From Sphingomonas sp. (GTDB lineage Bacteria > Pseudomonadota > Alphaproteobacteria > Sphingomonadales > Sphingomonadaceae), in NCBI GenBank assembly GCA_013816595.1, contig JACDEB010000002.1, positions 1 to 64,000 on the forward strand: DNA of 64,000 bases. Direction: 5' to 3'. Position 1 is the first letter of the stretch. Every line of letters begins with the position of its first letter. Positions 44,531-46,457 of the stretch are shown here, one piece after another. A model generated the notes under the pieces. The model saw nothing but the letters and a program-made list of their open reading frames with translations. It was not told the DNA's origin and ran no database searches. The position numbers were made by a program, and so were the translations under genes.

Positions 44531-45068
44531 GGCCAAATCATCGGACAAGGTGACAATCAAGAAATACGCCAACCGGCGGCTTTATGACACGGAAAGTTCG
44601 GCATACATCACGCTCGACCGATTGGCGCAAATGGTCCGCGACGGGCGCGAGTTCGAGGTGGTCGACGCCAAGAGCGGCGATGACATCACCCGTCACGTGC
44701 TGACGCAGATCATCGTCGATGAGGAAGCGCGCGGCTCGACCATGCTGCCGCTCAATTTCCTCAAACAGATCATCGGTCTCTACGGCAATTCGATGCAGAA
44801 CTTCGTGCCTCAATATCTCGAGGCTGCAATGGATGCGTTGAAGCGCAACCAAAGCGCCGCGCGCGATGCCTTTGGCGCCAATATGTTCGCCGAAATCGCC
44901 AAGAAGAATATGACGATGTTCGAGGAAGCGGCGCAGGCACTACGCGGCAAGCCGATGGGCAATGCCGATCCCAAATCCGAACCCGCGGCCGCGCCCAAAG
45001 ACGACATGGGCGCGCTTCGTGCGGAACTTGCCGCGCTTCAGGCCAAAGTCGACAAGCTGGGCCGTTGA
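44529..45068 (+). CDS. phaR: Polyhydroxyalkanoate synthesis repressor PhaR
   Basis: VTIKKYANRRLYDTESSAYITLDRLAQMVRDGREFEVVDAKSGDDITRHVLTQII. Confidence 0.96.
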   Translation: MAKSSDKVTIKKYANRRLYDTESSAYITLDRLAQMVRDGREFEVVDAKSGDDITRHVLTQIIVDEEARGSTMLPLNFLKQIIGLYGNSMQNFVPQYLEAAMDALKRNQSAARDAFGANMFAEIAKKNMTMFEEAAQALRGKPMGNADPKSEPAAAPKDDMGALRAELAALQAKVDKLGR

Positions 45069-45070
45069 TC

Positions 45071-45550
45071 ATGCGTTTATGGTGTGCGTCGACTGCGGCT
45101 CTGGTTCTTCCCTGCTCGGCATTTGCGCAGTCGCCCGCGCCGACCACCGTCCAGCCCGCTTATGATTACAGCATCGCCAATCCGGTTGCCGGACGCTGGC
45201 ATTATGCCCCGACCACCACCGGCAGCGCGGCCAGCTTTGGCGATGGCGCGGCGCGCCCGCTGCTGACCCTGACGTGCGTCCGGTCGATCCGGCGCATCAG
45301 CATTGCTCGCCCGGCGCTTGGTGCGGCGCCATATTTGATGGTGTGGACCAGCGCCGAACGTCGCAACGTGCCGGCCAGTTTCAATCCCGCGACCGGCCTC
45401 ATCAGCGCTGATCTTGGCGCCTACGACCGATTGTTCGATTCGCTCGCCTTCAGCCGCGGCCGATTAGCGATCGGGCCAAGCAACGCCGGCGCATTGGTGG
45501 CGCCGGTGTGGCCCGACATCATCCGAGTTATTGAGGATTGCCGCAGCTGA
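45071..45550 (+). CDS. Hypothetical secreted protein
   Basis: Signal peptide MRLWCASTAALVLPCSAFAQSP; YDYSIANPVAGRWHYAPTTTGSAASFGD. Confidence 0.7.
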   Translation: MRLWCASTAALVLPCSAFAQSPAPTTVQPAYDYSIANPVAGRWHYAPTTTGSAASFGDGAARPLLTLTCVRSIRRISIARPALGAAPYLMVWTSAERRNVPASFNPATGLISADLGAYDRLFDSLAFSRGRLAIGPSNAGALVAPVWPDIIRVIEDCRS

Positions 45551-45660
45551 ACCAGGGCCTGGTTCGGGCAAGCGCAAGAGAATTGCCGATTATTCACCTC
45601 ATTTCAAGTCTTGAAAGTGCGGCCAATCCGACTCATCATGGTATTCGCAATCACGCAGCG

Positions 45661-45806
45661 AAAGGAGGTGATCCGATGTCTCATGGTTCAGCAGAGAGGT
45701 CGGAGGAGGTCGTTCGTAGGCGCTAGGCGCTGGCGAATGGTTGGCACCTCCTTCCGCTGACCATGTCGAAGGGCATCGCTGCTGAGCAGCGGTGCCCTTT
45801 AACATG
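45661..45806 (+). ncRNA. Candidate riboregulator / sRNA: SD element, mini-ORF, internal anti-SD, terminal hairpin
   Basis: aaaggaggtgatcc (45661-45674); cacctcctt (45745-45753); hairpin aagggcatcgctgct...agcagcggtgccctt within 45762..45806. Confidence 0.55.
45676..45726 (+). CDS. 16-aa mini-ORF MSHGSAERSEEVVRRR
   Basis: ATG 5 nt after a near-complete SD AAAGGAGGTG; terminates TAG. Confidence 0.5.
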   Translation: MSHGSAERSEEVVRRR

Positions 45807-45890: not shown

Positions 45891-46457
45891 ATGGCGAAAA
45901 CCACGACTAAACGGACCATTAGGACGGCCACCAAAAAATCGCCGTCGAAAGCCAAGCCGAAAACCCGCAGCCCGGCGAAGTCGAAAAAGAGCAGCACCGT
46001 CGACAAGATCGCCAAGGCGGCGATGAGCAAGGAAATGCTCGCCGCCGGACTCACCGCGGCGGCAGCGGCGATTGCCGCAAGCCCCAAGGCCCGCAAAGCC
46101 ATTCGCGACGCCGGCATGGATGCCGCTGATACTGCTTCCAGTGCTGCATCGAGCATGATGTCGAGCGCCACCAAATTGGGTGCGCTGATCGCCGAAGCGG
46201 TGGCCGATGCCGCACAGCGCGTGATGTCGGGCAAATGGGCCGAGGATCTGCCCGGAATGCCGCAACGTGGGACAAGCCGCAGCGCAGCGAAGAAGCCCGC
46301 CGCGCGCAAGAAAACGGCGACTCGCAAAAAACCCGCTGCTCGCAAAAAGACGGCGGCGAAAATCGGGGCCGCGTCGACTGCCAGAAAATCGCCGGCGAAA
46401 AAGCGCTCGACCGCGCGCAAGCCGGCGGCGCGCAAAGCGGCACCCAAGACGCCGTAA
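45891..46457 (+). CDS. Histone H1-like / AAKP-type basic-tailed protein
   Basis: Lys-rich N-terminal tail, Ala-rich helical core, C-terminal KKPAARKKTATRKKPAARKKTAAK repeats. Confidence 0.7.
   Translation: MAKTTTKRTIRTATKKSPSKAKPKTRSPAKSKKSSTVDKIAKAAMSKEMLAAGLTAAAAAIAASPKARKAIRDAGMDAADTASSAASSMMSSATKLGALIAEAVADAAQRVMSGKWAEDLPGMPQRGTSRSAAKKPAARKKTATRKKPAARKKTAAKIGAASTARKSPAKKRSTARKPAARKAAPKTP

Follow-up and report, generated by a model that had tools for sequence, protein, structure and literature searches.

The window, by which we mean the whole stretch of Sphingomonas sp. DNA analysed here (64,000 nt), very probably carries an independent and conserved sRNA gene of roughly 155 nt, related to CC2171 (Rfam RF01867), as judged from its sequence and from that of its relatives. 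Taken as a combined statement, we propose a ribosome-gated sRNA that doubles as a mini-mRNA and represents an MSHG subtype related to CC2171, a description to which we would give about an even chance. An independent sRNA had already been one of the two readings offered in the first-pass annotation of this locus, and this reading stood up to the comparison with relatives: the promoter is conserved, a terminator hairpin is present, no conserved gene follows downstream and the phylogenetic spread is wide. The features on which the discussion is based are the following:

45602-45639, plus strand: predicted sigma-70-type promoter, with the dyad TTTCAAGTCTTGAAA over the -35, a 17-nt spacer and the -10 TCATCA/CATCAT
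45630-45634, plus strand: GACTC, a GANTC site overlapping the -10 and position-locked in MSHG promoters
45645-45806, plus strand: predicted sRNA transcript, its 5' end placed according to the promoter (further based on fold z and family conservation)
45652-45798, plus strand: full-length match to Rfam RF01867 (CC2171), 45.8 bits at a gathering score of 75
45661-45674, plus strand: extended Shine-Dalgarno (SD) sequence AAAGGAGGTGATCC, over 14 nt complementary to the 16S tail (GGAUCACCUCCUUU)
45676-45726, plus strand: mini-ORF MSHGSAERSEEVVRRR, 16 codons long and ended by TAG (most relatives have 18 codons)
45682-45692, plus strand: 5' strand of helix P1, CATGGTTCAGC, located in mini-ORF codons 3-6 and unchanged throughout 40 MSHG sequences
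45702-45710, plus strand: internal motif GGAGGAGGT within the mini-ORF, seen in the sequence
45710-45740, plus strand: P2-like hairpin across the end of the mini-ORF, in the minimum free energy (MFE) fold of the window copy
45745-45753, plus strand: anti-SD-like CACCTCCTT (CACUUCC in many relatives), whose closed-state partner in the MFE structure is 45662-45670
45756-45765, plus strand: 3' strand of helix P1, GCTGACCATG, at the terminator foot
45768-45800, plus strand: hairpin resembling a terminator and followed by a short T run, from sequence and fold

Inspection of the sequence confirmed every motif that the first-pass annotation had named, including its position. The spacing of 5 nt given there between SD and start codon had to be corrected, as the full 16S complement is separated from the ATG at 45676 by only 1 nt (G45675) and its GGAGG core (45664-45668) by 7 nt. 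The 14-mer is unique in the window even if two mismatches are allowed (0.39 expected), and a single exact copy exists genome-wide. As reference for the alphaproteobacterial 16S end (CTGGATCACCTCCTTT), a plasmid-borne alphaproteobacterial rRNA was used for checking. The predicted transcript folds with a z of -7.66 against dinucleotide shuffles. Its terminator is a weaker call in the window copy than in the relatives, since the sequence 3' of the hairpin reads TTTAAC only; a terminator scan requiring at least five T found none in the window copy, and the relatives possess longer T runs. A plasmid or phage origin of the element was considered as well and is unsupported, no match being found in plasmid or phage collections.

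Kinship with CC2171 and distribution of the element

A BLAST search with a 221-nt region recovered the element, mostly as a single copy, from 262 of the 301 Sphingomonadaceae genomes, and the core (45658-45703) is about 100% identical across most of these 262 genomes. An alignment of 40 relatives reveals two near-invariant blocks, GCGAAAGGAGGTGATCCGATGTCTCATGG..CAG and CGCTGACCATG, with a variable part between them and with a terminator hairpin of changing sequence after the second. The RF01867 model aligns with the window copy over its entire length (model positions 1-159 of 159; 45.8 bits, E about 1e-8, in one scan 8e-9), and full-length matches of 31-57 bits are likewise obtained for 12 other sphingomonad (MSHG) loci. 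A match to an RNA family already described, which the first-pass annotation had counted as evidence against its own reading, is thereby half given: the alignment is full-length, but the score of the window copy stays below the gathering cut-off of 75 set by the curators. This holds for most of the relatives too: at E <= 0.001 the model matches 148 of 161 Sphingomonadaceae genomes, and 3 of the 161 reach the cut-off, while in a sample of the alphaproteobacterial class 72 of 338 genomes are matched, 10 of them above it. A simple sequence pattern matches 74 of these 338 genomes, and a reversed control pattern gave no match among the genomes listed for this sample. Caulobacterales, Hyphomicrobiales, Rhodospirillales and Acetobacteraceae are among the named matches; three matches of a phylum-wide sample fall outside the class, all of them with a damaged SD. 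With a covariance model built from sphingomonads only, canonical loci are recovered at roughly 1e-8 to 4e-10.

As the SD and the start region alone supply part of the score of canonical loci under the sphingomonad model, the architecture was weighed above the bits. The element and CC2171 have in common the leader, AAAGGAGGUGAUCC and the start (A/G)UG UCUCAU, the long-range helix between start region and terminator foot (present in the element as P1), a GC-rich terminator and the organisation as an independent gene, whereas the MSHG type differs in the sequence of P1, in P2, in its promoter and in having CAUGGUUCAGC in place of CAUUGUC. In some Sphingomonadaceae the canonical (MSHC..) and the MSHG types occur in the same genome (apparent cases are the loci L047 and L155 of one genome, as well as the genomes G011, G012, G086, G112, G146 and G158), and several Sphingomonadaceae genomes without the MSHG type carry the canonical one. 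Because of the sub-threshold score and of this coexistence, we regard MSHG as a paralogous subtype related to CC2171 instead of filing it as a member; it appears to be a duplicate with its own, GANTC-bearing promoter type and not a simple orthologue. The literature searched yielded no function for RF01867/CC2171. What has been filed as a Caulobacter sRNA would, from these comparisons, be one RNA common to much of the Alphaproteobacteria; the present cut-off of RF01867 hides nearly all of its relatives, and rebuilding its model and annotating the mini-ORF would be of benefit to the family.

Promoter and neighbouring genes

A promoter scan of the window returned TTGAAA-17-CATCAT (shuffle mean 0.1). 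The dyad CAAGnCTTG over the -35 is kept in 111 of 127 MSHG loci, and 79 of these 111 dyad-bearing promoters contain GANTC, the methylation motif of CcrM, at one fixed offset (20 nt from CTTG) over the -10, a position lock that was not seen in the promoters of other families. Given this lock, and given that the source genome encodes GcrA and a CcrM-type RAMA domain, control of the sRNA promoter by GcrA/CcrM may be inferred on good grounds, and the transcription of the sphingomonad sRNA is probably cell-cycle-dependent by way of the promoter GANTC. For activation by GcrA in Caulobacter, the stricter motif YGAKTCK has been described (PMC7987155), which the GANTC site of the window does not match.

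About 85 nt 3' of the element and in the same orientation, the window contains a gene (45891-46457) for a Lys/Ala-rich histone-like protein without Pfam match, and the other reading of the first-pass annotation was that of a translation-coupled transcription attenuator for this gene. Apart from the arrangement itself, the short T run of the window copy's terminator would suit such a function. However, only 9 of 131 MSHG loci have the histone-like gene behind the element; in 52 a branched-chain aminotransferase (ilvE-like) gene takes this place, the remaining loci have other downstream genes, in some cases facing the opposite way, and across all 131 loci no conserved regulated gene was found immediately downstream. 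In the window copy, the predicted competing helices leave out the terminator stem, and the MFE fold and the fold with P1 forced both retain the terminator hairpin. The attenuator is largely refuted by synteny, and we consider it most improbable. On the other side of the element, the upstream gene (45065-45550) is a conserved neighbour in 112 of 131 MSHG loci; its product, which matches no Pfam family, probably carries a signal peptide.

Ribosome-binding site, mini-ORF and competing folds

The extended SD is near-invariant in 153 elements, a figure biased upward because that very sequence served in part to find the loci; outside the sphingomonads, 20 of 29 substitutions within it retain the pair with the 16S rRNA as G-U. 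Among the distinct MSHG sequences, 107 of 123 have an ORF of exactly 18 codons behind this site, ended by TAA in 66, by TGA in 31 and by TAG in 10 of them, and between the stop and P1 one finds 37 different distances. Fixed length, exchanged stops and such a multitude of stop-to-P1 distances can hardly be accounted for unless the reading frame is under selection, and we consider it likely from this pattern that the mini-ORF is translated. ATG, GTG and TTG are all used as start codons across the class (the absence of CTG is no evidence, since only A, G or T was admitted before TG when the elements were collected), and codon 2 encodes serine almost without exception, by TCT, TCG, TCC or TCA. For codons 5-18 the mean entropy at the first, second and third positions amounts to 0.96, 1.04 and 0.73; as the third positions are the least variable instead of the most variable ones, selection appears to act on the translated length rather than on the peptide.

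The same numbers weigh on the idea that the element is a short mRNA made solely for a micropeptide of 18 residues (16 in the window), whose expression the RNA structures would tune or protect. A very strong SD, the conservation of start and stop and the P1-bearing relatives in Azospirillum, in which a signal-peptide-like ORF of 57-59 codons begins with the same start, are what one would expect of such an mRNA. Against it, besides the low entropy at third positions, stand the free variation of the MSHG codons 10-18 at first and second positions, the first nine codons, which are largely accounted for by RNA pairing, and the peptides of other families, unrelated beyond MS-H/S/N, and we hold this reading to be rather unlikely.

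Helix P1, in which codon 2 onward pairs with the foot of the terminator, is found class-wide and shows covariation between families. When its 3' strands were exchanged between species, the non-sphingomonad sequences paired with their own strands at a mean of -12.6 kcal/mol versus -9.35 with the swapped ones (sd 0.27; best of 50, -10.0), and at each of the positions +8 to +14 several Watson-Crick pair types occur. Within the sphingomonads P1 is invariant and for this reason displays no covariation. In P2 of the MSHG type, codons 13-16 pair with the stretch after the stop; seven of its eight pairs have changed on both sides, and slid controls are far below.

A third set of pairings concerns the SD itself. 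Of the 9-bp duplex between the SD and a downstream anti-SD described in the first-pass annotation, the general tendency is borne out across the class, but its perfect version is an extreme of one lineage. Across 46 families other than that of the sphingomonads, sequence complementary to the SD is enriched relative to dinucleotide shuffles (mean z of -1.07, p = 2e-8; controls with a shuffled or a reversed SD lay between -0.02 and -0.28), and many canonical members mimic the 16S tail by a UGGAUC..GCCUCC located within the ORF. In the sphingomonads the energy of the SD:anti-SD duplex is not below that of shuffles (mean z -0.24). The stretch in question reads CACUUCC or CACCUCC after the stop in the MSHG type, and 47 of 78 MSHG sequences match GGAGGTG over at least 6 contiguous bp, compared to 20 +/- 3 in shuffles, a count made up of related sequences and not of independent cases; in these carriers the stretch is mostly locked to positions +80 to +95. 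The perfect CACCTCCTT is not conserved, relatives having usually CACUUCC or something more different; in the genus of the window the stretch is absent or degraded outside the window copy (L005, L006, L010), and the window copy itself is the extreme of the MSHG subtype (z -3.0).

Two further readings build on these complementarities. According to one of them, the element is a base-pairing sRNA, the anti-SD-like loop (CACUUCC/CACCUCC) of which would repress mRNAs, with SD and ORF mainly providing a ribosome-protected, stable 5' end. The mostly position-locked stretch in 47 of the 78 MSHG sequences would be in line with this, but it is not universal, as its loss or decay in L005, L006 and L010 demonstrates, and the conserved ORF length would be left unexplained; we judge this unlikely. 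The other would have the RNA bind or titrate 30S subunits through its 16S-tail complement, be it as a sensor of free 30S or in quality control of the 16S 3' end, in competition with its own anti-SD mimic. To this the class-wide preservation of the 14-nt complement with its mostly wobble-preserving changes, the enrichment of an internal 16S-like anti-SD in 46 families and the mimic inside the ORF of many canonical members lend themselves well; a single gene copy, however, is hardly able to titrate ribosomes, and mere binding needs neither a start codon nor an ORF, which makes such a role very unlikely in our opinion.

In the best fold of the window copy the SD is closed by CACCUCCUU, and CAGCG pairs with CGCUG (45656-45660 with 45755-45759). 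This closed fold is predicted to surpass the best P1-containing fold by 14.6 kcal/mol, and as the closed helix and P1 share GCUG (45756-45759) in the window, the two are mutually exclusive. Ensemble folding of the MSHG type (n=122) gave 62 sequences with closed SD, 51 with P1 formed and 11 with neither, and that of the canonical type (n=73) 25 closed and 44 with P1. Mutually exclusive foldings of the SD, as they had been proposed for this locus beforehand, are accordingly supported in so far as competing forms are concerned, but the conserved counterpart of the closed state is a different helix, P1, and GGAGGAGGT is not conserved. That CACCTCCTT pairs with the internal GGAGGAGGT was rejected as a feature of the family, the latter motif being specific to the lineage of the window.

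Proposed ribosome gating, known RNAs and divergent relatives

The ribosome-gated mini-mRNA that we favour could work as follows. While the RNA is being transcribed or thereafter, 30S subunits would capture the extended SD, and ribosomes would translate the 18 codons of the mini-ORF up to a stop whose position within P2 is fixed. Translation would open P1 and the SD:anti-SD helix, so that the 3' anti-SD-like and P1 strands are left single-stranded, and without initiation the RNA would close on itself. Engagement of the ribosome would in this way gate either the stability of the sRNA or its pairing in trans with the ribosome-binding sites of other mRNAs; an action of the opened RNA in trans at ribosome-binding sites is our first guess, the control of stability our second. 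That translation gates the RNA as proposed is possible, if doubtful. The predicted closure of the window copy by 14.6 kcal/mol would imply that its translation is limited unless initiation takes place co-transcriptionally. Going one step further, an alphaproteobacterial RNA of this kind might sense the availability of ribosomes, with free 30S subunits competing with the internal mimic of the 16S tail, which we take to be quite unlikely. If it were true, ribosome capture and a mini-ORF acting independently of its sequence would flip an RNA between closed and open states, with the regulatory output being exerted in trans. The RNA retains a maximal ribosome-binding site in much of the Alphaproteobacteria, and its best-conserved property is the predicted ability to hold the 16S tail.

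Several known RNAs resemble the element in some respect. The alphaproteobacterial sRNAs SisA-D (alphaR8) possess a pyrimidine-rich stretch able to pair with purine-rich ribosome-binding sites (PMC12559287). They differ in their single-stranded UUUCCUCCCU core, which does not occur in the element, whereas the element has a structured CACUUCC/CACCUCC and a conserved mini-ORF; Rfam scans of the element list no alphaR8 family. CcnA (CCNA_R0094) of Caulobacter is a cell-cycle-regulated ncRNA with a proposed action at ribosome-binding sites (PMC8959179), and differs from the element by its CCCC loop, its linkage to the origin and its presumable activation by CtrA. Both CcnA and SisA-D were considered as the identity of the element and rejected as different RNAs. 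In the leader-peptide mRNA rbfL of S. aureus, an SD duplex extends beyond the canonical core and the translation of a short ORF appears to matter (PMC13009471). Unlike leaders of the rbfL type, the element is without a regulated downstream gene and ends in its own terminator hairpin.

Two groups of relatives deviate in their reading frames. Five loci, from Azospirillum (L216 and L246) and one other lineage (L259, L064 and L113 being the remaining loci), contain, instead of the mini-ORF, an ORF of 56-59 codons, the products of which look secreted, are signal-peptide-like and cysteine-containing (..A(D/E)CSxxHS..) and belong to no Pfam family; extended SD and P1 are kept. Since P1 is retained beside the terminator foot, L113 and L064, with 56-58 codons, are better read as members with a longer ORF than as false positives. 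In four other loci (L199 and L210, both from Bradyrhizobium, as well as L252 and L267) a conserved peptide of 14 codons, MSYxKRCHLAGIAR, is encoded and the 3' half is unusually conserved (GGCATCGGGGCGCTCTCAGCCCTGGACCAGCGAG); these loci may constitute a specialised branch of the family.
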